Part shown: positions 18,279-37,945 of the stretch, one piece after another
Numbering within the stretch: the stretch's first letter is position 1
Layout of the letters: every line of letters begins with the position of its first letter
Source of the DNA: an uncultured Planctomycetota bacterium
GTDB lineage: Bacteria > Planctomycetota > Phycisphaerae > Sedimentisphaerales > UBA12454
Reading direction: 5' to 3'
Assembly (NCBI GenBank): GCA_903847315.1
Contig: CAINDG010000043.1
Coordinates: forward strand, 1 to 39,036
DNA: 39,036 nt
Program-made: the position numbers and the translations under genes
Notes under the pieces: generated by a model
The model's database searches: none
Told to the model about the DNA's origin: nothing
Seen by the model: only the letters and a program-made list of their open reading frames with translations

Positions 18279-18785
18279 TTATTTCTTCCTAATCAGCAAG
18301 CCGCCAAGGCAAAGCAGGGCGATTGTTGCCGGTTCCGGAACAATAATCTCATCGGCTAGAGTGAGTGATTCCTGTGTCATACTATTATCCATAGTATACA
18401 GATCGATCACGGTTGCACCCTCTAAAAGTGTGTAACCAGTTATCCATTCTCCGCCTGGTGTTGCGACATAGGTGATGTTCGTAGCTCTGAACTCGCCATA
18501 AGTACCCGTGCCGTAATCAAACAGACCGGTGTCGCCGACATCGCCTTCATTGGCATTTGACAGGGTTCCCAGTATCGCAAGTATTGCAGTTGGCATAGAC
18601 AATGAACCATTCTCTACACCGATAATCGCGAAATACTGTCCCGTCTGATCGGCTGCGCCCGTCATACCATTTGTTACGTCGATACCATAGGTACCGTCGC
18701 CATTGTCGACTAGCGTCATCGCTACCGTTGCACTGGCCAACGAGGTCATTGCAAGAACTAAAACTAAAACTAACAACTTCTTCAT
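18279..18785 (-). CDS. PEP-CTERM sorting-signal protein, copy 2
   Basis: 168 residues with the signal peptide KKLLVLVLVLAMTSLASA and C-terminal VPEPATIALLCLGGLLIRKK. It matches copy 1 along its whole length: VDNGDGTYGIDVTNGM, NEGDVGDTGLFDYGTGTYG, and SLTLADEIIVPEP. The small difference in the tail (IRKK versus LRRRK) fits the family. Likely a secreted, surface-processed protein. A perfect palindrome at 18807-18824 lies just upstream of its start. AGGAGG-like bases precede the ATG (TACCTCCTTT on the plus strand). Confidence 0.92.
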   Translation of the reverse strand: MKKLLVLVLVLAMTSLASATVAMTLVDNGDGTYGIDVTNGMTGAADQTGQYFAIIGVENGSLSMPTAILAILGTLSNANEGDVGDTGLFDYGTGTYGEFRATNITYVATPGGEWITGYTLLEGATVIDLYTMDNSMTQESLTLADEIIVPEPATIALLCLGGLLIRKK

Positions 18786-23960: not shown

Positions 23961-26621
23961 TCAATCTGAAAGTTTTTTATCTACGAATAAAGCATCAAAG
24001 AAACCCTTTTTCTTCAAATACTGATAAAGATAAGATATGCCGACAAGAGTAACGCCGGTGACCATAAACGCTGCAACACGATATATATTTTTAATTTCCT
24101 GAGTGTCTATCAGGAATACTTTTACCAGTAATATAGCAAACAGACCGATGCTGATATATCGCAAAGTCCTGATTTTTCGCCAAAATCCTATTACCATTAA
24201 AACCGCTCCGTAAAGCGCCCACATTATGGATATATACATCTGGGCGAGAAATTTCCAGTTATAGACCGGCCCGGCAAAACAATTTTTACAATACCAGTAA
24301 AGATATATTTCCTGGGTGAGAATTATCCATAGCATAAATATCGCCCCAAGTGCAAATACAGCAGTAAAACTTTTACCGTTATATTCTTCATCTTTAGTCC
24401 GCCCAAACAGCCAGGCTGCCAGAAATAAACCAACTATAAAAGAAAGAGCTACTGCGAGATTGGTATTTACAAAAATTACGAAACTACTGTTATGGAATGC
24501 GGGAAAATTAACCATAGTAAATATCGCTCCGATTCCCGCCAAAGCCGCTGCCAGAACAGCGGAGATAATACCGCCCGGAGAAATCGGCCGAATAACAAAA
24601 AGCAGCATAATCACCGTAAATATGATTACCAGACCTTTCAACAAAATATTTTCCTCCGTAACAATATTATATTTGCAATGCCAGTACCATTCAGCAGCCA
24701 CCGTTGACAAGAGCAGTAAGCCTAACAAACCGTAAATAATCTGTGAAATCCGGCCGGCATCTGAAACTTGTCTATACTTAATCTGGCAGATTAATATAAC
24801 CAAAAGAAAAGTAAAAACGGCCGCGAAATCCGGGTTTGCAAAAATTATAAAGCTGCTGCTATGTAAATGTCCTAACGCGATAATCGTAAATATTGCGCCG
24901 CTTACCAGTAAGACCCATGACAAAACCTCAGATAATATTCCCCCTGGACAGATAAACCGGGGAAGAAACATCAATACGACCATAGAGAAGATTATTAATT
25001 GACCTTGTGCAATACAATGTATGCCGGTGCCGATAAGCAGATTATATCTGCAATGATAGTACCATTCCATTGAACCTGCCGCGAACAGTAAAAGCACCGA
25101 CAGCCCGTAAAGAATTTGTGAAAGGAATGCATAATTCTGCAACTGCAATGTATTTTTCCGATACAACAGATGGCACAAATATATTGCGACAGATACAAAA
25201 CACCATGTCCCAAATTCAGGGTTAAGTATGAAATTAAATTTATATGAGTGCATCGGTATATTAATAATCAGGCATCCGATGCTTAAAAACATCACTATGA
25301 TCCCACCGGCCTGTGTAAGATAGCTGGCGTAACGCAGGCCGATTAAAACAAGCACGAGCGATTCACACGCCCAGGCAATCGTTGTCGCGTCCAATCTGTA
25401 ATAGAACGGTACGGCAAGAGTAATAAAGAAAATCCCTATCGCCTGCAGAACCAGCCGCAGATTAACATCCTCTTTGCATCGGCGATTTACTATTACCGAA
25501 AACGCGAAATGTATCAAAGCCAAAATAACCGCTTCAAAGGCAAGGCAGCCCCTGTACGAATCAAAAAGAACAACGCATAGATAATATAAAACTGCCGCGG
25601 CATTGGCCAGAATCAGCAACACGTCCTCTTTATTAGATTTGACTTTCTTTACTAATCCATAAAGTATCGGCATAACCAGATAAATCATGAAAAACACGCC
25701 CAGCCAGCCCAATACAAAAGATATTTGATTAAGGTCAAGAGCTTTGCCTTCGCAGAGTATGGAATTATATTTTGAGCCGTTGAACCAAATCGTATAAAGT
25801 GTAAATGTTCCTATAAACGAAAGGAAATTTATCGCTTTCCATCTACGATAATAAGCACAGAGCATCGCGCCAGCTCCGAGAATTAGAATATACACAAACA
25901 GCGGAGTTGGTGTAGTAATCTTCGACAACACAATAACAGGGGTTGAAAATCCGCCGAGCAAACTCAAAAATGCAATTAATATTTCATCCAGTACAACAGC
26001 ATAAATCATCGCCGCGACAGTAATAACTATCGCAAAGATACAGGCGGGTATATAACCGATTAATCCGTAAATCTGATATGCCGCAAAAACCGCCGCGTAT
26101 AATATGGCAAATCCTAACGCCGTCACACCTTTGGCAACTATGCCGTAATCTCTTCGCCTTGTTATTTCACCAGCTAAAAGAGCTATAAAACCAAAAACCG
26201 TAACCGCAGTTATCTTACCAAGCGGGCCTATCGAAAAATTGTCATAGGCATATTTGAGAAAGAAACAGACACCCGCAAAAACAGTAATCACTCCGGCAAT
26301 AAGTATCCACCGTGTGCCTATTTTCTGTTCAAGAGCGGCTGTTTCTCTATCGTCTTTCTTCTTTTCCTGCTCGATATATGAATCAACCGCCTTTTGCGGT
26401 ATCGGCGGCACTGGCGGCGGCAACTGTTGTTTGATTTTCGGCGGTTCAATTACAGGCTCTTGAACAGTCTCATAAAGCTTAGAAACAGCTTTAATTCCCT
26501 TTTGAGTCTCATGAGATTTCTCTCTTGTTCTGTTTAGGGCGATAAGCGATATGATAAGCGCGGCCGGTCCTGTCAAAACACAAAGGACGACTAATAAAAT
26601 CAAAACAATAAAATCATCCAT
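23961..26621 (-). CDS. DUF2339 polytopic membrane protein
   Basis: 886 residues. An N-terminal membrane helix is followed by a proline-rich, charged linker (residues ~55-95), then IGTRWILIAGVITVFAGVCFFLKYAYD and GPLGKITAV, the DUF2339 signature, and a long series of about 20 or more helices. The C-terminal half holds a ~125-residue unit at least twice (start points SQILYGL at 501 and SQIIYGL at 626, with EWYYHCRYN/EWYWHCKYN), and a third, weaker version further on. Role unknown; probably a large integral membrane complex part. AGGAG precedes the ATG at 26621, 25 nt after the LplT-Aas fusion stop, so it is in that operon. Confidence 0.9.
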   Translation of the reverse strand: MDDFIVLILLVVLCVLTGPAALIISLIALNRTREKSHETQKGIKAVSKLYETVQEPVIEPPKIKQQLPPPVPPIPQKAVDSYIEQEKKKDDRETAALEQKIGTRWILIAGVITVFAGVCFFLKYAYDNFSIGPLGKITAVTVFGFIALLAGEITRRRDYGIVAKGVTALGFAILYAAVFAAYQIYGLIGYIPACIFAIVITVAAMIYAVVLDEILIAFLSLLGGFSTPVIVLSKITTPTPLFVYILILGAGAMLCAYYRRWKAINFLSFIGTFTLYTIWFNGSKYNSILCEGKALDLNQISFVLGWLGVFFMIYLVMPILYGLVKKVKSNKEDVLLILANAAAVLYYLCVVLFDSYRGCLAFEAVILALIHFAFSVIVNRRCKEDVNLRLVLQAIGIFFITLAVPFYYRLDATTIAWACESLVLVLIGLRYASYLTQAGGIIVMFLSIGCLIINIPMHSYKFNFILNPEFGTWCFVSVAIYLCHLLYRKNTLQLQNYAFLSQILYGLSVLLLFAAGSMEWYYHCRYNLLIGTGIHCIAQGQLIIFSMVVLMFLPRFICPGGILSEVLSWVLLVSGAIFTIIALGHLHSSSFIIFANPDFAAVFTFLLVILICQIKYRQVSDAGRISQIIYGLLGLLLLSTVAAEWYWHCKYNIVTEENILLKGLVIIFTVIMLLFVIRPISPGGIISAVLAAALAGIGAIFTMVNFPAFHNSSFVIFVNTNLAVALSFIVGLFLAAWLFGRTKDEEYNGKSFTAVFALGAIFMLWIILTQEIYLYWYCKNCFAGPVYNWKFLAQMYISIMWALYGAVLMVIGFWRKIRTLRYISIGLFAILLVKVFLIDTQEIKNIYRVAAFMVTGVTLVGISYLYQYLKKKGFFDALFVDKKLSD

Positions 26622-26646: not shown

Positions 26647-29600
26647 CTAAACAATACTGTCGTCTTTTTTAAGCGATAAGGCAATTTCTTTCAGTTTGAC
26701 AATGTCAAGTTTTCCGGAGCCGAGGGTCGGCATCGATTCAATCCTGATATAATTATTGTGATGCGGCCGGGATATATTCGGCAGACCGCTGTTTGCGATA
26801 ATCTCGTGCAGTTTTTCGGCGTCACCAGCCTGCGAAAGATACAGAACGACAAGCTCTTCGCCTTTTTTCTCGTCCGGAACGGCCGATACGGCAACGAGCT
26901 GCTCACTTGTGCCGAGGGCGTTTAATAAAGCTTCCTCAATGCCGACGTGCGAAACCATTTCGCCGCCGATTTTGCTGAATCGCGACAGCCTGTCTGTAAT
27001 CGTCAGGAAACCATCAGTATCAATTTTCGCGACGTCGCCGGTATCGTACCAGCCATCTTTCAAAACCTCGTCAGTCTTGTCCCTGGCATTAATATAACCG
27101 AGCATAACGTTTGGCCCCTTTATCAAAAGCAGGCCTTCTTTTCCGGCGGGCAATGGTTCTTTAGTTTCAAAGTCCACGATTTTTACCGCCACACCCGGAA
27201 TCGGATGGCCGACAGAGCCATCCTTGGTGCCTACCTGATACACGCCATCGGCCTGGACATTGGGAATATTCAAAGAAACTACCGGTGAAAGCTCCGTGGC
27301 ACCGTAACCTTCCAGCGGCCTAATCCCGAACTTTTCCTCGAACATATCGGCCAGCCGTTTTTTAAGTTTTTCCGCGCCGGCAGCTACCAGCCTGAGACTT
27401 GCAAAATCCTTCCGCTCAATGCGTCTGATATAATTCAAAAGAAATGTTGGCGGCGCAAATAAAACGGTTGAATGATTTTCGCGGACGCTTTGTCCTGTCG
27501 CCGGCGCGTCAAGCGGATTGGCGACGAAGCTAACCGAACCGCCGCTGATAAGAGGCAGCCACAGGCCACAGTTAAATCCGAAAGAATGAAAGAACGGCAA
27601 AACGCCGCAGAGATTATCGTCCGGCTTTATACGGACAATCAGCCGTACGGCTTCGATATCTGAAATGATATTATGATGACTGAGCATTACCCCTTTCGGT
27701 CTGCCGCTGCTGCCGGAAGAAAATATAACTGTCGCCAAATCGTCGCCGAAATATCGCAGGGGTTTAGTTAAAAACGATGCCGGCAAAAAACGCGCTTTCA
27801 AATATGCCCTGATTTTCGCCGGCCGACTGATTTTGGCGGCGATGTCTTCAAGAAAAACAACGCTTTGGGGTGCGAGAGAAATTTCTGTTTTTTCCAGAAA
27901 TTTGCGGGATGAAATAATACACCTGATGCCGCATTGCTGGATGGCAAAATCTCTCGCCTGTGGGCCGGCGGTGTAATTCAGATTTACCGATACCCTGCCT
28001 GATAGGGTCACCGCCAAATTGGCAATCGCTCCGCCTGCCGACGGCGGCAGAAGTATTCCCACCTTCTCATCGGGTTTTGTGAGTTTATTTATTGTCTCAG
28101 CAACCGCTACAGCACTTACAAAAGTTTGGCCGTAATTGAGGCGTTTGCCGGTAGTATCGGCAATGCAGCGTTTAGACCAGTTTTTTCGAGCCACCTTAAT
28201 AAAGTGATGCGCCAATGACCGCCGGGGCGATTTTAAGCTGTCGAAATACTCGCAGGAAAGCTCCGTTACTTTTTGCATTATCCCAATCACCGGCGAATCG
28301 GCGGGCATAGGTTTTCCAAAATGGATCGAGACCGGATACGGAAATTTTCTGGGCAGCATCGATAATACTTTGCCGCTGTAGTAACTGAAAATACTGCCCC
28401 ATAACCCGCCCAGATACACAGGGATAATATCATAGTCGCTGTGTTTGATTATTCTTTCAAATCCGCCTTTGAATCCGGCCATCATTCCACTGCGGGTTAC
28501 CATCCCTTCGGCAAATATACATACGATAAATCCCTCGTCCATTGCCGAGCGGGCATGTCTGAGCGAGGCGATAAGCTTCTTTGGCGAATCTGTGGCTGAT
28601 ATCGGAATAACCCCCATCAGTTTCGCAATCGGCCGCAGATACCACTTGTCGTAAAAATGCTTTTCCATAATAAAACGGATTCGCCGCTGCTGGGTGGCCG
28701 CTAAAATCAGCGCATCGGCCCACGAAACGTGATTGCAGACCAGTAAAACACTTTTGTCAGTAGGAATATTTTCAGTGCCTGAAACTTTAATCCGATAGCA
28801 CAGGCGGGTAAGCAGTATGCACAGAAAACGGACGAAAAAATCCGGCAGCAGCATTATCGTCGCAATGGTCGGCACCAATGTCATCACGCCAAGGGCGATA
28901 AACATTTGTTCCGCCGACAATTTCCAAAGGCCGGCGAAACAATAAATCAGTCCCGAAGCCATAAGCACGCCGACCCAGCCTAAAAAGTTCGACGCAGCCA
29001 CGATTTGGCCGCGATGCTGCGACGGACTGCGAAGCTGAATAAACGTATTAATGGGAACAATAAACAGACCTGCGCTTACGCCCATTAAAAAAATCAGCAA
29101 AAAAACTGAATAAAATCCCTGTGCAAATCCGAGCCCTGCCGACGAAAGAGTCAGGCCGATTGCTCCGAGCGGAACGACGCCGAATTCCACGTTCCGGCCG
29201 GAAAGTTTGCCCGCCCAGAAAGAGCCAGCTCCGATGCCTATCGCCGCAATAACAAATAAATATCCGCTTTGCGTTTCGCCAAGTCCGAGATGTTTTATGC
29301 CGTACGGAATAAGATTCGAGTAAATAAAACCGCCAATCAGCAAAAAATACGCCGATGCGATGACGGCCAGGAACAGGTCTCTGTCGCGGCGGATTTCACG
29401 CAGAGTTCGCCAGATGTCACGCAGGAAAAATAACGACATCGAATCGGCTGCGCCGGCAGCGGGTGTGCGGGGTATAAATAAACTGGCTGCTAATCCTGAA
29501 ACCGCAACTGCAACACAGATTACTCCCATAAACCCGAAACGTCCGCCTGTTGTCTGCGACAAAAACGGGCCTAACGCGGTTCCTATGACAATAGCCAGAT

Positions 29601-30054
29601 ATGTAAAAGCCTCCATTGCGCCGTTGGCCTGCGACAATTGCTCGCTTTTGACAAGTTCCGGAATAATGCTGTATTTGGCCGGCGCGAAAAGAGCGCTGTG
29701 GGATGCCATCAGGAACAATACGCAATACAAACCTGTTACACTATGCGACAGAAACGCTGCGCACCCGAGAGTCATTACTATAACTTCCATCACTTTGGCC
29801 AGAACGATAATGCTGCGTTTGCTGAAACGGTCAACCAGTTTGCCCGCCATCGCGGTGAAAATTAAAAACGGCACTACAAATACCGCACCTGCCAGGGCTG
29901 TTACATTGCTGGCGGAGTCCGGCCCATGCACCCTGATTGCGAAAAGGATTAAAAACAGTTTGAAAATATTGTCGTTAAGTGCGCCGAGAAACTGCGTGGC
30001 GTTGAGCCACCCAAAAGAAGCTCCAAGTTTTATTTTGGCCTCGGAATTCATCAT
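26647..30054 (-). CDS. LplT-like transporter / PlsC acyltransferase / Aas acyl-ACP synthetase fusion
   Basis: 1,135 residues in three parts. Residues 1-~420: a 12-helix MFS transporter (LplT-like) with GKLVDRFSKRS. Residues ~425-610: a PlsC-type acyltransferase with the catalytic NHVSWAD (441-447) and FAEGMVTRSG. Residues ~620-1135: an AMP-forming adenylate ligase with FSSGSSGRPKG (778-788) and YGATELSP. Together they import lysophospholipid, activate a fatty acid and reacylate the lipid, repairing inner-membrane phospholipids. In E. coli LplT and Aas are separate proteins; fused forms are known. The next gene downstream is DUF2339 and upstream is a lipase-like hydrolase, so the cluster may handle lipid remodelling. 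Confidence 0.93.
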   Translation of the reverse strand: MMNSEAKIKLGASFGWLNATQFLGALNDNIFKLFLILFAIRVHGPDSASNVTALAGAVFVVPFLIFTAMAGKLVDRFSKRSIIVLAKVMEVIVMTLGCAAFLSHSVTGLYCVLFLMASHSALFAPAKYSIIPELVKSEQLSQANGAMEAFTYLAIVIGTALGPFLSQTTGGRFGFMGVICVAVAVSGLAASLFIPRTPAAGAADSMSLFFLRDIWRTLREIRRDRDLFLAVIASAYFLLIGGFIYSNLIPYGIKHLGLGETQSGYLFVIAAIGIGAGSFWAGKLSGRNVEFGVVPLGAIGLTLSSAGLGFAQGFYSVFLLIFLMGVSAGLFIVPINTFIQLRSPSQHRGQIVAASNFLGWVGVLMASGLIYCFAGLWKLSAEQMFIALGVMTLVPTIATIMLLPDFFVRFLCILLTRLCYRIKVSGTENIPTDKSVLLVCNHVSWADALILAATQQRRIRFIMEKHFYDKWYLRPIAKLMGVIPISATDSPKKLIASLRHARSAMDEGFIVCIFAEGMVTRSGMMAGFKGGFERIIKHSDYDIIPVYLGGLWGSIFSYYSGKVLSMLPRKFPYPVSIHFGKPMPADSPVIGIMQKVTELSCEYFDSLKSPRRSLAHHFIKVARKNWSKRCIADTTGKRLNYGQTFVSAVAVAETINKLTKPDEKVGILLPPSAGGAIANLAVTLSGRVSVNLNYTAGPQARDFAIQQCGIRCIISSRKFLEKTEISLAPQSVVFLEDIAAKISRPAKIRAYLKARFLPASFLTKPLRYFGDDLATVIFSSGSSGRPKGVMLSHHNIISDIEAVRLIVRIKPDDNLCGVLPFFHSFGFNCGLWLPLISGGSVSFVANPLDAPATGQSVRENHSTVLFAPPTFLLNYIRRIERKDFASLRLVAAGAEKLKKRLADMFEEKFGIRPLEGYGATELSPVVSLNIPNVQADGVYQVGTKDGSVGHPIPGVAVKIVDFETKEPLPAGKEGLLLIKGPNVMLGYINARDKTDEVLKDGWYDTGDVAKIDTDGFLTITDRLSRFSKIGGEMVSHVGIEEALLNALGTSEQLVAVSAVPDEKKGEELVVLYLSQAGDAEKLHEIIANSGLPNISRPHHNNYIRIESMPTLGSGKLDIVKLKEIALSLKKDDSIV

Positions 30055-30083: not shown

Positions 30084-30953
30084 TTAATTTTCAAGATAAC
30101 TATCTATCAGCGAAAACACCAATTCCTGAATTTTTTCAGATTCGTTGAGCAATTCATGCTGACCTTTTTTAATCAATTTTATTTCTGCTCTGCCGAATTT
30201 CGACTGAATGAATTTCAGGTTGTACCGCCACGCCACCGTAGTGTCGCTTTTGCCCTGGATAACCAATATCGGCCTGCCGATAATTGGGACGCCGGCAATT
30301 TTGCGATTCCATTTGAACATAGCGCCAATCCAATTGAGGGAAATTTTTCTGGATTGTAACGGGTCCTGATATTTTACAAATCTTAAAAAATTCTCATCTG
30401 AAGAATTCCTTGGAAAGAGGCGAAATATATTTTCCGCAAAATGGCGATAGATGCCGTAAGCAATCCTCGCCCAAAACCACTGTGCGCAGTGTACCAGGGG
30501 GGCAGTTAAAATAACTTTGCCGAAACAATCGCCCCGCTGCGAAAAAAGATAATCCATAACGGCCGCAGCGCCGGTACTGTGGCCGATTATATGGTATGGG
30601 CCGTGTAACTGCGTTTTGATTATGTCCATAAAATCGTTCAGCGAATCGCTGTACTGCGAAAAATCGCTGATGTCCGTCCGCCTGCCGTCAGAGAGGCCGT
30701 GGCCGGGCAAATCGAAAACGGCAACGGCGAAACCCGCTTCTGTCAGATATTTAATTAGTTTGCTTAATAACCCGCAATGATTCAGAAAGCCGTGCAAGAC
30801 AACAACCGTCGCCTTGTAATCGACCGGCTTAAATACGTGGCCTGCCAATTCAAAACCGTTCGATTTAAAAGGTACAAATTCGTGCCTACCGGCAGAAATC
30901 TTCAGTCCGTAAAATTCCAGATAGTTTTCGATTGAACCAAAGCAGTTAATCAT
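30084..30953 (-). CDS. Alpha/beta hydrolase, monoacylglycerol lipase-like
   Basis: 289 residues, alpha/beta hydrolase fold. Visible are VVLHGFLNHCG (oxyanion region), FDLPGHGLSDG, and the nucleophile elbow GHSTGAAA with serine in the middle; the C-terminal part has QGKSDTTV and GQHELLNE (acid and catalytic His regions). This pattern is that of monoglyceride lipases/lysophospholipases, which would supply lysolipid or fatty acid to the neighbouring LplT-Aas fusion. A relic of a similar gene is at 23860. Its ATG overlaps the 30946-31350 stop by 8 nt, so they are co-translated. Confidence 0.9.
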   Translation of the reverse strand: MINCFGSIENYLEFYGLKISAGRHEFVPFKSNGFELAGHVFKPVDYKATVVVLHGFLNHCGLLSKLIKYLTEAGFAVAVFDLPGHGLSDGRRTDISDFSQYSDSLNDFMDIIKTQLHGPYHIIGHSTGAAAVMDYLFSQRGDCFGKVILTAPLVHCAQWFWARIAYGIYRHFAENIFRLFPRNSSDENFLRFVKYQDPLQSRKISLNWIGAMFKWNRKIAGVPIIGRPILVIQGKSDTTVAWRYNLKFIQSKFGRAEIKLIKKGQHELLNESEKIQELVFSLIDSYLEN

Positions 30954-31350
30954 TTTTGGCCTTGCTTTTCATTTCAAATACGCGAACAATAACATAGGCC
31001 ACGAGCGCGAAAATAAAGAAAACCAAAAGCATCCACGCAATACCCTGAAGCGTTCCGATTGTCGCTCGATAAACCTCAAATACCCAGCGTTCTGTGGTCA
31101 ACTGGACAATCTCGGCATCTTTATAAACTTGTGATTTTGTAATATATTTTTCGAGGTCCCAGATTCTTACGCCGCTGGAGATGCCGGTAACGTATATGGC
31201 AAACTTAAGGTATTTCGACCATGCTTTGCTTATCTGGTCTGAGATGATTCGGTCAAGAATTTTATCCAGCGGCCTGCTAAAAAACAAAACTACAATCGTC
31301 GAGACAACAAACGCAATAATAAAAGTCGCAACTAAAAGTGTAATAAACAT
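30946..31350 (-). CDS. Small two-TM membrane protein of unknown function
   Basis: 134 residues. Two membrane helices (LLVATFIIAFVVSTIVVLFF near the start and AWMLLVFFIFALVAYVIV near the end) enclose a charged central part (DKILDRIISDQISKAW). No family recognised. Its last codons overlap the hydrolase start, so it is the first gene of the lipid-remodelling cluster. GGGAAAAA lies before the ATG. Confidence 0.75.
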   Translation of the reverse strand: MFITLLVATFIIAFVVSTIVVLFFSRPLDKILDRIISDQISKAWSKYLKFAIYVTGISSGVRIWDLEKYITKSQVYKDAEIVQLTTERWVFEVYRATIGTLQGIAWMLLVFFIFALVAYVIVRVFEMKSKAKND

Positions 31351-31583
31351 TTTTTTCCCTTTCTGACAATCTTTTCTTATTTTTATCTTGTAAACTAACT
31401 ACAAAATATTTCTGGAAACGTCAATTTTCATACACCGCACGTCAAGGTTACAGATACACCCACGGTTAAATTCACCTGCGGTCCGCCAAATATAAAACGC
31501 AAAAGCAAAATCGCCAATCTCAACGGCCCTATATACACAATAGCTGAAACTAATCCATACACAAACGGCCTGAGTCGGCAGTC
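31351..31583. other. Short gap upstream of the hydrolase operon
   Basis: 233 bp. Candidate minus-strand -35 TTGACG followed 17 bp on by TAGTTA, a poor -10. No hairpin found at the end of the marR operon. Confidence 0.35.
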
Positions 31584-31889
31584 TTACAGCAGTCCGGCTG
31601 GTTCTTCCACACCTGTTTTCAACGCCTGGCGTATATCGATGATTGGATGCAGCTTGAATTCGACTGCATCACCGAAGACAGTCTGTATCGACAACAGGCT
31701 GGCCAGATGGTTTTGGTCGTCCATTTCAAGCAGCAAATAGCCTACAAGCGCTGATGGATCGACAAACTCGTGGATAACGTTAACCCGTTTGCGAAATGCT
31801 TCAGAGTATTTTTCCTGCCATCGCTGTCGAAGACGAATCGCCTCCGCACCTTTGCCCGGATATGCTCCGTAACTCAACATAAACAACAT
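31584..31889 (-). CDS. DUF3303-like small protein
   Basis: 101 residues. The start MLFMLSYGAYPGKG, a Y-S-E-A-F block, and FGDAVEFKLHPIIDIRQALK near the end fit the small DUF3303-type fold (ferredoxin-like, function unknown). AAAGGAG lies 8 nt before the ATG. It is the last gene of the marR-linked operon. Confidence 0.65.
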   Translation of the reverse strand: MLFMLSYGAYPGKGAEAIRLRQRWQEKYSEAFRKRVNVIHEFVDPSALVGYLLLEMDDQNHLASLLSIQTVFGDAVEFKLHPIIDIRQALKTGVEEPAGLL

Positions 31890-31930: not shown

Positions 31931-32551
31931 TTAATTGTCTTCAGTGGCTGCATTATCGTTAACATCATCGGCGAGCCAGATAAATTCCATCGGTTTATCG
32001 AAAATCGAGTTTGCATCATCTACTGCGTTTATGCCGCATTTGATAACAAATCTCTGAAGTTCTTTGGTTTCGGCCGTCAGAATAAACCTGTCATCTACCG
32101 TTTCATGTTTGACGATGTTAGGGTCTGCCTTGATGATTTTATCAACTTTTCCGGAATCCACTATAGTGATTTTCAGCGTTGGGCGCATCTGTGAAACTTT
32201 CATAAACGAATGGGCGCCGAGAAGATGTTGTTGGTATAAATCAATTCCCTTCTCGCCTGATTCGAGCGGAAGGACATCGAGGAAAAGATTATTCTGTAGT
32301 TCTCCGAGACCGGCCAGGAAAGTGCCCTTCTTGCCATCCTTTTGCGTTACAACAAGTTTATAACAGTCTTTGTCCTCGAACCGGCTGAAATGCCAGGTCT
32401 CGTTGGAATCTGCCGCTTTCCACACTCCCGAAAGATTCGGGTCAAAAAATGCCTCGTCTTCTGTAAAAAGCGGATGCAAAGACGGCTGCACACAGCCGCC
32501 CAAAACAACAGCCAGCAGATAAAACGCGATAATCTTTATTTTCGTTTTCAC
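31931..32551 (-). CDS. Lipoprotein of unknown function
   Basis: 206 residues, starting at a GTG that is supported by AAGGAG 7 nt upstream. The N-terminus (IAFYLLAVVLGGC) ends in a lipobox with Cys20, so it is likely anchored to a membrane. The following part (GVWKAADSNETWHFSRFEDK) may be a small beta-barrel-like domain. Not recognised further. Genes on both sides are envelope proteins. Confidence 0.75.
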   Translation of the reverse strand: MKTKIKIIAFYLLAVVLGGCVQPSLHPLFTEDEAFFDPNLSGVWKAADSNETWHFSRFEDKDCYKLVVTQKDGKKGTFLAGLGELQNNLFLDVLPLESGEKGIDLYQQHLLGAHSFMKVSQMRPTLKITIVDSGKVDKIIKADPNIVKHETVDDRFILTAETKELQRFVIKCGINAVDDANSIFDKPMEFIWLADDVNDNAATEDN

Positions 32552-32585: not shown

Positions 32586-33092
32586 TTAAATCGAACCGCT
32601 AATTTCTTTTTTTCTCAACCTGTCAGATATGAGAATTACAATGCTTCCGAGCATACCGACAGCGAACAATGCCGGGCAGACTATAACAGCGAGGATGAAA
32701 AAGACGGCCTCGTCCTCCCCAGCTTTTCCATGAAAGAACAGGCCGTAAACCAGATTATGCAGAATGGCAAAGATTGGAATTCCTACAGCCGAGGCGCCGG
32801 TCAATAAGAAAAATATTCTTCGCATGAGCGGCTCTTTGAGCTTCAAGGTCAGTACCAATAGTGCTATCGCAAGAGTGAAAAAGACAACCGCGATAACAAC
32901 TAAAAGAAGCCTCTTATACTCCCAAAACCTCAACCGGGTCGCCACCATGATTGGGCTGGCGACCAGTGCGGCAAAAATTACAACCATCGCCCAGAAAATA
33001 ATGTTTCTTATTCGAAGTGCTTTAGTTTCCATTTTTTTCTCTTTCAATAATTCGTTAATATTATAAATCTTTGTTTTATTCAAGTCGCTCAT
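32586..33092 (-). CDS. Four-TM membrane protein of unknown function
   Basis: 168 residues with four hydrophobic stretches (NIIFWAMVVIFAALVASPI; LLLVVIAVVFFTLAIALLVL; IFFLLTGASAVGIPIFAIL; FFILAVIVCPALFAVGMLG). The start could also be the Met at 33032. Function unknown; the gene begins 18 nt after the secreted protein's stop and is co-transcribed. Confidence 0.75.
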   Translation of the reverse strand: MSDLNKTKIYNINELLKEKKMETKALRIRNIIFWAMVVIFAALVASPIMVATRLRFWEYKRLLLVVIAVVFFTLAIALLVLTLKLKEPLMRRIFFLLTGASAVGIPIFAILHNLVYGLFFHGKAGEDEAVFFILAVIVCPALFAVGMLGSIVILISDRLRKKEISGSI

Positions 33093-33110: not shown

Positions 33111-34232
33111 CTACTTAAGCCTTTTGGCAAGTCGCTCAACGGCTAATCGGTCGCAGTCTTCGATGCTCTTTGGCACAATCCGCTGAAAATCTTCGTGTGT
33201 GCTGTTCTGGAAATCGGTTAGCACCCAGTCGCCTGACTTTTCGCAGATGACGAAGTGCACCGCACCGGCAGGTCCGCCGGCAGGATTAACAAAATACTCC
33301 GCCAGCATCGCATAGTTGGAATCGGCAGGATTTGCACGCAGATAGTCGCGAAACGCTCGTGCCAAATCCCACAAAAGTTTCTGTTCGTTGCCTGTTGGCT
33401 GACGCTGGAAGGAGACCTGCTTATCCACCTTTATCGTCTTACAGCCAATCTGCTGCGTAATCAATGAAGTCAGGTGAGCTGCGCTTTCGGCATTGTACTT
33501 TTCATTAACAAAGGTGGAGTAAATAGCAATTTGCACTGTCTTGATATTGGCTTTGAACTTTGCAAAAGATTTTTCCATAGCCGCATTTTCGCTATCGCTG
33601 GGTATTCCAGATGCTTGAGCCCACTTATGTGCAAATTTTCCATGTGGTTCCCCTTCGACCTTTTGCCAGCCGAGTCGAGAAAACAGCCGTTCCGCTACAA
33701 GCACGGAACACCCCATCGCGTCCGGGTCACCGGACACTATTCGCTTGAAATCCTCATCTTTGTCAGTCTGGCGGTCACTAAGCACTAAATTGCCCACTGC
33801 ATCGGTTACCACAAAACGAATTTCGGTCGGTCCGCCATTTGGGTTTCCAAGATACTGTGCGTAGAGGACGTATTCGCCCTTCGGCTGATTTTTCTTCAGA
33901 AATTCAGCCAGATGCACCGGCACCTGCTCCCACGTAGCCTCGGCAGGCGGGATAAATTCCGCATCGAGTGCGTCAAGATTGTTCATTCCATACGATTCGG
34001 CTACCCCGCCGAGCACGTCAGCGACTATACGGCTTGTAATCATAGGGTGTTTAAACCAAATTTGTACCGGCAGCATGACAAGCGATACATTATTCGGGTC
34101 GCATTTTTTCAGTGCGGCAAGACTCTTCGCCTGCGGCGAATTCACATCAGAGGCCGCCTGTACCGACAGCAATGCCGTACACAACATAGATGCAGCGATA
34201 ATCAAACAAATTGTAACTTTCCCCTTAACCAT
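33111..34232 (-). CDS. Secreted protein with an internal duplication
   Basis: 373 residues with a signal peptide (VTICLIIAASMLCTALLSVQA). Two related segments each begin with Y-V/M-L, then a GGP turn, a V-L-S/T-D stretch, and end in E-D-F-x-R-I-V and ER-L: YAQYLGNPNGGPTEIRFVV / VLSDRQTDKDEDFKRIV and AEYFVNPAGGPAGAVHFVI / VLTDFQNSTHEDFQRIV. The protein arose by duplication of a ~150-residue module. Function unknown. AAAGGAG precedes its ATG, and a candidate MarR operator lies 28-47 bp upstream. Confidence 0.78.
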   Translation of the reverse strand: MVKGKVTICLIIAASMLCTALLSVQAASDVNSPQAKSLAALKKCDPNNVSLVMLPVQIWFKHPMITSRIVADVLGGVAESYGMNNLDALDAEFIPPAEATWEQVPVHLAEFLKKNQPKGEYVLYAQYLGNPNGGPTEIRFVVTDAVGNLVLSDRQTDKDEDFKRIVSGDPDAMGCSVLVAERLFSRLGWQKVEGEPHGKFAHKWAQASGIPSDSENAAMEKSFAKFKANIKTVQIAIYSTFVNEKYNAESAAHLTSLITQQIGCKTIKVDKQVSFQRQPTGNEQKLLWDLARAFRDYLRANPADSNYAMLAEYFVNPAGGPAGAVHFVICEKSGDWVLTDFQNSTHEDFQRIVPKSIEDCDRLAVERLAKRLK

Positions 34233-34259
34233 TTTTTCTCCTTTATTGTTTAAATATAT

Positions 34260-34279
34260 ATTGTTAATATCTTAACTAT
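34260..34279 (-). promoter_or_regulatory. Candidate MarR operator in front of the envelope operon
   Basis: ATTGTTAATATCTTAACTAT (plus strand) contains the inverted repeat GTTAA/TTAAC. It matches the site before marR at 18 of 20 positions and at a similar distance from its start codon. Confidence 0.6.
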
Positions 34280-34306
34280 TCTGTTAAAAAAATATAAGTT
34301 TGGCTT

Positions 34307-34783
34307 TTACGCCGATTTATTTATGTTGGCCCTTACCTTTTCAAGGACGGCCATCAGTTTTTTCTGCTCTATCTGATTAACGCCTGCCATCGCCTGCTTT
34401 ACCTGTTCCACATAGAAAGGCTCGGCCTTTTCAAACATCTTTTTTCCTTTTGCGGTCAGTTTGATTATGTTTGTCCGCCTATCGGCTGAATCGTTTGTAC
34501 GAATAACAAACTGCGCTTTTTCCATTCTGTCTATCAGTGTCGTGATGTTGGCACGGTTGACAAGCATCATATCGCTTAGCTTCGCCTGGCTGAGACCATC
34601 AGGGCCGCCCTGATAAGTAAGCAGCATCATAACGTTGAACTGGACATCCGTCAGGCCAAAGGTTTTAAAAAACACATCGGCACGTTTCTTGAGACTTGTC
34701 GTCGTATAATAGATATTCAGCAGGGCTTCGTGCTCGGCCATTTCAAAACCTTTTTTCAATTTTAATTCTTCTTTAAGCGGCAT
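34307..34783 (-). CDS. MarR family transcriptional regulator
   Basis: 158 residues. A winged helix-turn-helix of the MarR type: QAKLSDMMLVNRANITTLIDRMEKA is the recognition region and NDSADRRTNIIKLTAKGKKMF the wing. MarR dimers bind small phenolic or lipid-like ligands and release DNA. A start at 34741 (MAEHEALLN) with AAAGG upstream is also possible. It precedes four envelope or unknown genes on the same strand, and the shared 20-bp sites imply that it represses itself and them. Confidence 0.92.
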   Translation of the reverse strand: MPLKEELKLKKGFEMAEHEALLNIYYTTTSLKKRADVFFKTFGLTDVQFNVMMLLTYQGGPDGLSQAKLSDMMLVNRANITTLIDRMEKAQFVIRTNDSADRRTNIIKLTAKGKKMFEKAEPFYVEQVKQAMAGVNQIEQKKLMAVLEKVRANINKSA

Positions 34784-34803
34784 AATAAACTTTCCATTAT
34801 TAA

Positions 34804-34823
34804 ATTGTTAATATATAAACTAT
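34804..34823 (-). promoter_or_regulatory. Candidate MarR operator before marR
   Basis: ATTGTTAATATATAAACTAT (plus strand), 21-40 bp from the marR start. It overlaps a candidate promoter at 34819-34845 on the minus strand. An outer inverted pair TTGTTA/TAACAA spans 34805-34837. Confidence 0.6.
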
Positions 34824-34845
34824 ATATGTACTAACAAACTGTCAA
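34819..34845 (-). promoter_or_regulatory. Candidate marR promoter
   Basis: Minus strand: TTGACA (34840-34845), 15-bp spacer, TATAGT (34819-34824); the operator at 34804-34823 covers the -10. The spacer is short, so the promoter call is tentative. Confidence 0.4.
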
Positions 34846-34944: not shown

Positions 34945-35126
34945 ATACAAAAATTCAAACGGCAACCGTAGCAAATCGACGTAACCTTAGTAATTTAAAA
35001 GAGATACGAAAATGGCAAAATTGAGTGGCATTAATTACCGCCTGTTAAAAGTAAAGAATAAATTAGTCAAGCTCGACCCCGATATTTACGCCAAAATAGT
35101 AAATACAAATCCTGAATTCCCTCACA

Positions 35127-35134
35127 AAAAATTT
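35127..35134 (+). repeat. Target site duplication, left copy
   Basis: AAAAATTT, identical to 37365-37372. 8-bp duplications are typical of IS1595-family insertion. Confidence 0.9.
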
Positions 35135-35158
35135 CGGAACTATACCTTTGACAAACCA
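35135..35158 (+). repeat. Left terminal inverted repeat (IRL)
   Basis: Outer end CGGAA, inner end TTGACAAACCA. It contains a TTGACA at 35148-35153 pointing into the element, toward the 54-codon ORF; no good -10 is seen downstream. Confidence 0.9.
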
Positions 35159-35195
35159 TTTCTTTTCCTGTAATCTATACTATTGACTTTCATAA

Positions 35196-35472: not shown

Positions 35473-36058
35473 CAAACAAGGCAATACTTGTCAAAATAGG
35501 ATATATTATAACCATACAGAAACATCGTTTTATGTCTCTTGCCGCCTGATAATTCTGTTTTAAGTTAAGATTTATTCTGTGTTGATAATATTCAAGTTGT
35601 GAAACTACTATTTTTTTATAATCAAAAGCCATTTCTTCTTTTGTTAGAAGATTTTCAGGAACATTCCCTAACGCCTCATAATCCAAAGAAGGCAAAAGAT
35701 ATTTTATTAAAATAAAAAAAACGCAAATTAAAACCACAAAATAAGCCGCCAGTGGCCATACATACCAATCATCCATATTAAACTGTTTAAACTTTAATAT
35801 AAACTCAACAAAAATATAACTGATTGCTCCGCCGATTAGCGTAATGAGAAACGTGGCCTTTTGGCTCAAATAACCGAGACTGTCAAATATATTTTGCAAA
35901 CACAAACGGCCTTCTTCGAGTATAAATTTAAGTTTTTCTTCTGTTAAATTGTTCCAGTCGGCCTTGTTGTTTTCATTGTTAATGAAATATCCACTGCGCC
36001 AAGACAACCTGTCGTTTATAGACTCTTTTTGCATTTTTCGCCCTGCCTTTCTTAGCAT
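35450..36058 (-). CDS. Passenger membrane protein with three TM helices
   Basis: 202 residues from 36058, or 194 from the internal ATG at 36034, which has AGGCAGGG upstream. The 36058 ATG overlaps the transposase stop (ATGCTAA), giving translational coupling. A soluble helical head (NNLTEEKLKFILEEGRLCLQ) leads into TM1 (ATFLITLIGGAISYIFVEF), TM2 (PLAAYFVVLICVFFILIKYL), a cytoplasmic helix and a C-terminal TM3 (MVIIYPILTSIALFVICYLW). The head-TM-TM-helix-TM plan recalls small membrane effectors of bacterial defence systems such as SLATT or PycTM, but I see no specific motif. Function unknown; it is an unusual passenger. Confidence 0.75.
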   Translation of the reverse strand: MLRKAGRKMQKESINDRLSWRSGYFINNENNKADWNNLTEEKLKFILEEGRLCLQNIFDSLGYLSQKATFLITLIGGAISYIFVEFILKFKQFNMDDWYVWPLAAYFVVLICVFFILIKYLLPSLDYEALGNVPENLLTKEEMAFDYKKIVVSQLEYYQHRINLNLKQNYQAARDIKRCFCMVIIYPILTSIALFVICYLWN

Positions 36059-37002
36059 ATAACTTCTTTAAATGGCAATTTTTTGCCTTCAATTCCTTGT
36101 ATGGCCGCAACTGCTCGCTGGCCGTCCGTTACTTCTCTTTGATTCCAGCGAAAAGCAAACTCGTCGCAATATCTGGCAAGATGTTTCTTTGAGATGTGAT
36201 GGAAAATACCGTGAACGCCCCTTTTAAGTAAAGAAAAATAACTCTCTACCGTATTTGTTGTTATATCGTGATAAGCATATTCTCCGTATGAATGATTAAC
36301 CGTTTTATGGCCGCCATCAAAGCTCTTACCTATTCCGTGATAACTACTGCACTCATCCGTCATAATTGTCGATTGCTTGCTTACTACCGCCTTAATAGCG
36401 GATTTTAAAGTCTTGTGATTTACAACGCCCAAAGGCTTTGATACTGCTTTGCCGTCTCTTTGGACAATAGCAAGAACTGGAGTCTTTTTTGTTCCTCGCC
36501 CCCTTATGTGAGCTGTGCCATCTCTTCTCGGCCTGCCGCCAACATAAGTCTCATCAACCTCAATTATTCCTTTTAGCATATCCTTTGACGGTTGCTGATT
36601 CATTGCCTTGCGTATTCTATGGCAAAGATACCAAGCTGATTTATAAGAACCTAAGCCTAAATTCCTTTGCAACTGTAAAGCGGATACGCCTTTTTTACTG
36701 CTGCACATTGCATAAAAAGCCTGAACCCATTGCCTTAAAGTGATATGCGAGCCCTGCATTATAGTTCCAACTGTTACCGTAAATTGCTTGCGGCAATCTT
36801 TACATTTAATTACGCCATCTCTGACTTTCTCCGATTTAGCCTGCAACCTCGTAACTCTCATACTGCCGCAATGCGGACAGGCTATTCCATTAGGCCAACG
36901 AATGTTTTCAATAATAGCCCTTGCTTCGTTTTCAGTTAATCGGCCAACGTCTATTGAGGCCATATCATTTAGCTTTTCAAATTTTGGGGGTTCATACTTC
37001 AT
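36052..37002 (-). CDS. IS1595 family transposase (ISXO2-like)
   Basis: 316 residues. An N-terminal zinc ribbon (CPHC at 42-45 and CKDC at 67-70) is followed by the DDE core: D150 in IIEVDETYVGG, D216 in IMTDECSSYHG, and N250/E253 in TNTVESYFSLLKRGVHGIFHH, the DDN-type catalytic set of IS1595. All present, so it looks intact. Its ATG overlaps the zinc-ribbon gene's stop (ATGA), and its stop overlaps the next gene, so the three genes are translated as an operon. Confidence 0.97.
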   Translation of the reverse strand: MKYEPPKFEKLNDMASIDVGRLTENEARAIIENIRWPNGIACPHCGSMRVTRLQAKSEKVRDGVIKCKDCRKQFTVTVGTIMQGSHITLRQWVQAFYAMCSSKKGVSALQLQRNLGLGSYKSAWYLCHRIRKAMNQQPSKDMLKGIIEVDETYVGGRPRRDGTAHIRGRGTKKTPVLAIVQRDGKAVSKPLGVVNHKTLKSAIKAVVSKQSTIMTDECSSYHGIGKSFDGGHKTVNHSYGEYAYHDITTNTVESYFSLLKRGVHGIFHHISKKHLARYCDEFAFRWNQREVTDGQRAVAAIQGIEGKKLPFKEVIC

Positions 37003-37323: not shown

Positions 37324-37351
37324 ATTATACCATTAAAGTTTGGTTTGTCAA
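37324..37351 (-). promoter_or_regulatory. Operon promoter with -35 inside the right inverted repeat
   Basis: Minus strand: TTGACA (37346-37351), 16-bp spacer, TATAAT (37324-37329). Both hexamers are perfect. The -35 hexamer is inside the IRR. Start codon of the zinc-ribbon gene is ~35 bp downstream of the -10. Confidence 0.82.
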
Positions 37352-37364
37352 GTAAATAATTCCG
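37341..37364 (-). repeat. Right terminal inverted repeat (IRR)
   Basis: Reverse partner of 35135-35158; 19 of 24 positions match. It doubles as the -35 region of the operon promoter. Confidence 0.9.
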
Positions 37365-37372
37365 AAAAATTT
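37365..37372 (+). repeat. Target site duplication, right copy
   Basis: AAAAATTT, the same as 35127-35134. Confidence 0.9.
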
Positions 37373-37945
37373 AATATGCACATCAATATCGACAAATTGG
37401 GCTATGCTTATGTCTTCACCAACACCAAGCCCTTAAAACGTCAGGCCCTTTCTCATTTTGTATTAAACGCCCAGCCAGGCCAGGTTGTTGACCATATTAA
37501 TGGCTGCAAATTGGACAATAGAAGATGTAATTTGAGACTGACCGACTACCGTCAGAATAGTTTGAATACCAAATGTAGAAATACCACCGGCTTTTATGGC
37601 GTTTCCGTAAAACAAGTTGGAAATTATAAATATTATACTGCGGAATTTAAATCAAAAGATGGCAAACGCCTTAGTTTCAAAGCTCCCTTTACGGATGCAG
37701 GCTTAATCCTCGCCGCCATAGCTCGGGACAGTTTCATTTTACAGGCCGGCGAAGAAAATTATGCAAGAATGAATTTTGAAAATTTCAAATTCAGAACGTT
37801 CAAATTCCTGTTGTTAAATGCAGACCTCAGGAAAATCAAACATCAGCTCCGTGACACCGATAAAATCTCACGGCAAAATAACATCGTTTTAAAGAATGCT
37901 ATCAGCCGCTCTGATAGTGCGGCAAATCTCCCCCGCCCCGCCTAA
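37373..37945 (+). pseudogene. 3' half of the disrupted HNH/AP2 endonuclease
   Basis: 190 codons continuing the frame of the 5' half. The HNH part is visible as LSHFVLNAQPGQVVDHINGC then KLDNRRCNLRL (the D-H-I-N-G and NRR-CNLR motifs of HNH_3 endonucleases), followed by a region like an AP2 DNA-binding domain (GFYGVSVKQVGNYKYYTAEF). The whole restored protein would be 231 residues, a free-standing homing-type endonuclease. The ATG at 37376 might still start a shortened protein, but no Shine-Dalgarno is visible there, so I treat it as inactivated. Confidence 0.82.

Follow-up and report, generated by a model that had tools for sequence, protein, structure and literature searches.

Several described systems resemble the locus considered here in its regulator or in its genes. 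In Enterococcus and Streptococcus, FabT is a MarR-family repressor encoded by the first gene of the membrane-lipid operon that it regulates, and it governs fatty acid synthesis (PMC13046290, available in part). MepR of Staphylococcus aureus has the MarR fold and reads a GTTAG signature (PMC8044140, likewise in part), and the title of reference 36 in that article places a multidrug efflux operon under its control. In Pseudomonas aeruginosa, the arc3 defence brings together LplT-Aas and the DUF2339 protein Arc3A. According to excerpts of a 2022 article (PMC8926400), Arc3A keeps lysophospholipids from accumulating when a phospholipase toxin is at work, many bacteria carry aas next to arc3 genes, and arc3 is subject to Gac/Rsm control. 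The same excerpts describe arc clusters as widespread and Gac/Rsm as confined to gamma-Proteobacteria, and call for further signalling systems to be identified. Extracts of PMC13274423 assign homologs carrying two PF01869 domains to the PlsA/Ger type of ether-lipid enzymes, and a TetR-like regulator adjoins pls in E. faecalis (PMC13274423 and PMC9702350, both in extract).

The locus analysed here lies in a stretch of 39,036 nucleotides (the window) from an uncultured Planctomycetota bacterium. A marR-family gene is followed on the same strand by a run of eight genes, extending from 34232 down to 23961, and operator-like sites are present both in the marR promoter (site 1) and between marR and the next gene (site 2) (Table 1). 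Judged from sequence comparison, this is very probably an autoregulated MarR that controls membrane phospholipid repair and remodelling. As with FabT, the predicted repressor is the first gene of the membrane-lipid operon that it would regulate. FabT governs fatty acid synthesis, whereas the predicted substrates of the window genes are lysophospholipids and the acyl chains of phospholipids. The eight downstream genes include no fab gene, and an exact-pattern scan of the window's own genome as a whole revealed no site elsewhere. Similarity of the regulator to the NCBIfam FabT equivalog is weak and falls short of the cut-off (40.7 versus 200 bits).

Assignment of the regulator to the MarR family is supported by a PF01047 domain scoring above its cut-off (46 versus 24.6 bits) and by an AF2 model with a pLDDT of 90.7, whose best PDB matches are MarR folds. 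MftR-DNA and PecS-DNA complexes rank at the top of the structure search, with a MepR-DNA complex lower (4lln, whose chains share 20-22% identity with the model). The GTTAG signature of MepR is close to the GTTAA half-site of the window, although the efflux operon under MepR differs from the lipid genes found here (PMC8044140, available in part). Orthologs of the window's marR are present in 16 of 39 relatives at 48-82% identity.

On the plus strand, site 2 reads attgttaatatcttaactat and site 1 reads attgttaatatataaactat over the intervals given in Table 1. On the minus (coding) strand, the corresponding sequences are TAGTTAAGATATTAACAA (34278-34261) and TAGTTTATATATTAACAA (34822-34805), and both sites match TAGTTWANATATTAACAA. 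The original prediction described two 20-bp sites with two differences, an inverted GTTAA-type core in each, and distances of 21 and 28 bp to the start codons, and these details agree with what we find. The sites are identical at 18 of 20 positions and share the same orientation, as do marR and the next gene. The core of site 2 is a perfect GTTAA-N4-TTAAC, while site 1 carries GTTTA-N4-TTAAC, with one half-site base off. Site 1 lies 21 bp before the marR ATG (34783), and site 2 lies 28 bp before the gene that starts at 34232.

Table 1. Features of the window at the marR locus and in the downstream gene run
Feature	Coordinates	Strand	Basis
Conserved marR promoter -35 box, TTGACA	34840..34845	-	Exact match before site 1 at 24 of 34 loci
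Probable marR promoter -10 box, TAGTTT, lying within site 1	34817..34822	-	N17 spacing to TTGACA; inference
Site 1, pseudo-palindrome resembling an operator, in the promoter of marR	34804..34823	-	Sequence, genome scans, relatives
marR-family regulator, 158 aa	34307..34783	-	Pfam, AF2 model, orthologs
TTAACA, the window's form of the conserved T-rich TTTTTTGR just before site 2; possible -35	34282..34287	-	Role inferred
Site 2, GTTAA-N4-TTAAC palindrome resembling an operator, in the gap after marR	34260..34279	-	Sequence, genome scans, relatives
Secreted protein (N-terminus, by eye), 373 aa	33111..34232	-	78% identical copy in L112
Small membrane protein; orthologs begin near residue 21, METKALRIR	32586..33092	-	Relatives
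Lipoprotein-like, GTG start	31931..32551	-	
DUF3303 protein	31584..31889	-	Pfam
'MFITLL', a small membrane protein highly conserved alongside the module	30946..31350	-	74% identical in the G036 remote operon
Alpha/beta hydrolase, relative of phospholipase BipL	30084..30953	-	Hydrolase_4, 126 bits
Fused LplT-PlsC-Aas: lysophospholipid transporter, acyltransferase and acyl-ACP synthetase	26647..30054	-	MFS_1, Acyltransferase, AMP-binding
DUF2339 membrane protein (Arc3A family)	23961..26621	-	PF10101, 278 bits

The surroundings of site 1 resemble a promoter. Site 1 attained p<=0.005 at 34 loci; at 24 of these an exact TTGACA is found 17-19 bp before the site, and 28 retain this element with at most one mismatch. 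Judging from this spacing, site 1 probably extends over the -10 region; in the window it overlaps the TAGTTT that would be the -10 of a marR promoter of the form TTGACA-N17-TAGTTT. A conserved palindromic site resembling an operator appears to lie within the predicted promoter of marR itself. There is no clear sigma-70 promoter at site 2 in the window, which has TTAACA instead of TTGACA. However, a T-rich element (TTTTTTGR) is kept before site 2 (of 27 loci, 24-25 have T at each of positions -11 to -8 and 19 have G at -7), and therefore a second promoter at this position is plausible.

Within the window's own 2.4 Mb genome, an 18-mer spanning both sites occurs exactly at these two places only. 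There are no matches at one mismatch, and the next appear at two. Matches with two or three mismatches were rejected as evidence for a larger regulon and regarded as background, because with up to three mismatches allowed the 18-mer is matched less often than a reversed-pattern control. Seven weak matches had no lipid enzyme beside them when the first 60 residues of the neighbouring ORFs were inspected by eye. A near-palindromic two-mismatch site 1 bp before a response-regulator-like ORF (G000:C10:16830-16847, L051) is probably background as well. A candidate third site before the MFITLL gene (31380-31397) was rejected, as it has three mismatches and a score of 3.5; the equivalent position at six other loci scores -0.9 or less.

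Comparison with relatives indicates that sites 1 and 2 are real, conserved and largely specific to marR loci. The exact 16-mer AGTTWANRTRTTAACA has 19 matches in 40 genomes, the window's own included, compared with five for the reversed pattern. All but one of the 19 are at marR loci, the exception being in G020. One marR-locus match is 2.5 kb upstream of the regulator in G007, where marR is the second gene of its operon and site 1 is instead positioned at the operon head, before a DUF2339 gene. Of the nine same-family relatives, G007 among them, seven have site 1 before marR, and in G010 no site 1 was found within 150 bp. Site 2 is a perfect GTTAA-N4-TTAAC in all eight same-family relatives that carry both the ortholog and the stretch after marR on the contig (G001, whose marR was kept despite masked bases, and G002, G003, G005, G006, G007, G009 and G010). 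Over the marR loci of all 16 relatives, nine have a perfect site 2, and G036 and G017 retain eight of ten half-site bases. Site 2 is absent from the stretch seen after marR in G037, G022, G032, G020 and G004, the last of which has a contig that ends 53 bp after the gene.

More widely, many marR orthologs, with identities as low as about 48%, again have one site or the other, or an equivalent of site 1. We examined 61 non-redundant marR loci, of which a scan of named genomes supplied 57, after dropping 13 loci duplicated between our genome set and named records, the distant loci L152-L156, and L157-L158, which lack a marR match. With a matrix trained on close relatives and p values from shuffles drawn as first-order Markov samples, the floor of p 0.005 was reached by site 1 at 34 of 59 loci and by site 2 at 27 of 60. 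For held-out loci, the corresponding counts are 25 of 48 and 18 of 49. In 20 further genomes reached via the named loci, a wider pattern has 13 exact matches distributed over eight genomes, ten of them at marR by position, and a reversed control has six. One of these genomes, G057, has three exact pattern matches away from its marR position (C41:962, C157:30528 and C463:5527). The original prediction expected the sites to be conserved before orthologs, which is true of the window's own family and holds only partially further out.

The presence of site 2 is related to the space available after marR. The gap is longer where site 2 is found (median 97 bp at 24 loci) than where it is lacking (29 bp at 27 loci; Mann-Whitney p=7e-4), although these lengths were measured to longest-ORF starts and a site would not fit in a very short gap. 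This difference is expected if site 1 alone serves closely packed loci. The simplest account is that close-packed genes use the marR promoter alone and spaced genes keep an operator of their own.

The original prediction placed site 2 before four small proteins. Instead, it heads the eight-gene run, whose first product, at 373 aa, is not small. This first protein was not found in the 39 relatives searched and is patchily distributed, with a 78% identical copy in a Phycisphaerales MAG (L112) that has the same marR. Gaps of -8 to 233 bp suggest that all eight genes share one transcript. The description of the targets as having unknown function proved too pessimistic, because the run extends into identifiable phospholipid enzymes. 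The LplT-PlsC-Aas protein passes the NCBIfam NF006386 equivalog for acyl-ACP--phospholipid O-acyltransferase (1392 bits, cut-off 1221). The hydrolase scores 253 bits against the BipL model NF052543 (cut-off 450) and is therefore a relative of BipL rather than a member. BipL itself is a predicted lipase whose deletion altered some lipid species (PMC10597414, in part). As one component of our best explanation, the operon very likely encodes lysophospholipid handling by a phospholipase-like hydrolase, LplT-Aas and an Arc3A-family protein, together with small envelope proteins. Lysophospholipids have also been reported as signals in E. coli (PMC13170283, in part).

Similar genes accompany the regulator in other lineages. 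In tblastn searches within 9 kb, phospholipid-acyl genes were found downstream of marR at 38 of the 55 loci with at least 1.5 kb of downstream sequence (39 of 55 if the upstream DUF2339 gene of G007 is counted), compared with two of 53 upstream. The query set was picked after some loci had been seen, and so this contrast measures position more than independent discovery. The other 17 of the 55 loci have no gene of the phospholipid set downstream. In G037, for example, whose MarR is 77% identical and preceded by site 1, an rlmN-like gene and arginine-type genes come next. Other lineages have CN_hydrolase proteins with similarity to Lnt, GDSL lipases, or proteins of about 1500 aa with two PF01869 domains and DUF2229 after the same marR; proteins of 1300 aa or more are excluded from our Pfam counts of marR neighbours. 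Lnt takes an acyl chain from a phospholipid and leaves a lysophospholipid behind. At 14 loci with PlsA/Ger-like genes, site 2 never reaches p 0.005, the best value being 0.05. Throughout Phycisphaerae, and in some MAGs whose titles name other phyla, the regulator appears to sit mostly beside enzymes predicted to cut, move or rebuild phospholipid acyl chains, and comparison shows the gene content to be conserved in theme.

Copies of the module located away from marR bear on whether the regulator could act in trans. G036, a 3.0 Mb genome from another family, has three exact occurrences of AGTTTANRTRTAAACWA, two at marR and one at C78:37104. The latter is about 43 bp before a 31-codon ORF (by eye) that heads a remote operon without marR, in which DUF2229/HGD-D-like, BcrAD_BadFG, TPR, MFITLL, BipL-like hydrolase, LplT-Aas and DUF2339 genes are present. 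Its MFITLL and hydrolase proteins are 74% and 42% identical to those of the window. Under a matrix built without the sites of G036 itself, the remote site scores 19.9, within the training range of 13.9-24.5. Ortholog-bearing genomes have seven Aas loci off the marR contig, of which six encode LplT-Aas fusions and one (G032) an Aas without LplT. The operator is present at two of these, in G036 and G004. In G004, it scores 20.1 and heads a run of membrane protein, Lnt-like, GDSL, hydrolase and LplT-Aas genes, but its position 234 bp from the contig start means that this may simply be the marR locus itself. No operator was found at the off-contig Aas loci of G001, G005 (both on short contigs), G017, G032 and G033, and therefore the trans link is not general. 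Off-contig DUF2339 loci of G004, G005, G022 and G033 likewise have no operator. A G033 candidate of 10.8 bits was rejected because it is inside a sigma-54 activator gene. Genes of this type are divergent to the lysophospholipid module in both G036 (L201:8285-9754) and G033 (L260:10348-11916); the former encodes a Pfam Sigma54_activat domain and the latter is similar by eye.

Self-regulation of MarR and control of the next operon, as originally predicted, are well supported by comparison, since the sites recur at orthologs and hardly any exact copy lies away from a marR locus. Presumably, a MarR dimer would bind the GTTAA-N4-TTAAC-like half-sites at both operators flanking marR. At site 1, it would cover the -10 region of its own promoter and so cause autorepression. 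At site 2, it would gate the downstream operon, either by occluding a second promoter or by stopping read-through from marR. In the absence of a signal, dimers would occupy both sites and keep expression of marR and the operon low, and a lipid signal would free MarR. Direct binding to both sites is likewise a prediction. The family and the geometry point to repression rather than activation and to a lipid-derived inducer, which might be an acyl chain, a fatty acid or a lysophospholipid.

Other explanations account for less of this evidence. MarR might repress only itself, leaving site 2 as a relic or a road-block on read-through and the operon under separate control. This arrangement would fit the lack of a clear -35/-10 pair at site 2 in the window, the occurrence of the hydrolase-LplT-Aas-DUF2339 module in G021, which has no marR ortholog, and the absence of the operator from the module of G017 and from the hydrolase-LplT-Aas pair of G033. 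We nevertheless judge it improbable, given that site 2 is a perfect palindrome in every testable same-family relative, persists ahead of differing next genes, and has a counterpart at the remote module of G036.

It is less probable still that another transcription factor binds the sites and marR is a passenger of the operon. The sigma-54-type activator genes beside the remote modules of G036 and G033 indicate that other regulators exist, but the exact sites follow marR across families. Furthermore, eight Aas loci whose genomes have no close marR ortholog (eight of the 14 such genomes that bear Aas; five LplT-Aas fusions and three Aas alone) score at most 8.0, compared with 13.9-24.5 in the training set. 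The palindromes could also work at the RNA level by forming an attenuator or hairpin in a marR-operon transcript, since a palindrome between co-directional genes could be transcribed. This we regard as highly improbable. RNA from site 2 folds no better than shuffles (z -0.12), and the overlap of site 1 with the likely -10 places that palindrome at or before the start of the transcript.

An autoregulated MarR operon is of a familiar kind, and it is the targets that make this one of interest. The window shares DUF2339 (Arc3A) and LplT-Aas with the arc3 defence of P. aeruginosa, which is under Gac/Rsm control rather than a one-component MarR (PMC8926400, in excerpt). The double PF01869 and DUF2229 proteins next to marR in other lineages match plsA/Ger as far as the PF01869 part is described, with MarR in place of the TetR-like regulator of E. 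faecalis pls (PMC13274423 and PMC9702350, in extract); these extracts mention no connection to a MarR. Among the open-licence articles that our searches listed, judged largely by title, we found no description of this regulator. We tentatively suggest that this MarR might be a sensor of membrane damage, which would detect a lysophospholipid or a freed acyl chain and derepress the LplT-Aas and Arc3A genes. It could then be one of the missing arc3 signalling systems outside gamma-Proteobacteria, with a regulon swapped by lineage among lysophospholipid repair, lipoprotein N-acylation (Lnt-like), GDSL lipase and ether-lipid (PlsA/Ger-like) enzymes. The locus offers a defined one-component candidate for arc3 signalling, with its candidate operators mapped, and it places DUF2339 and the small MFITLL protein in a functional context. 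The occurrence of such different genes beside one regulator suggests that one signal may lie behind several routes of phospholipid remodelling in little-studied bacteria.

Two other features of the window were noted. Upstream of marR is an IS1595-family transposase gene (36052-37002, minus strand; NF033547, 214 versus 75 bits) with small ORFs on both sides. An HNH-endonuclease-like frame (37340-37945) and a short frame at about 35010-35170 flank this region, and by eye the insertion looks to be in or beside such a gene. A small secreted-looking protein is encoded at 18279-18785 (minus strand), and its tail, VPEPATIALLCLGGLLIRKK, resembles a PEP-CTERM sorting signal.
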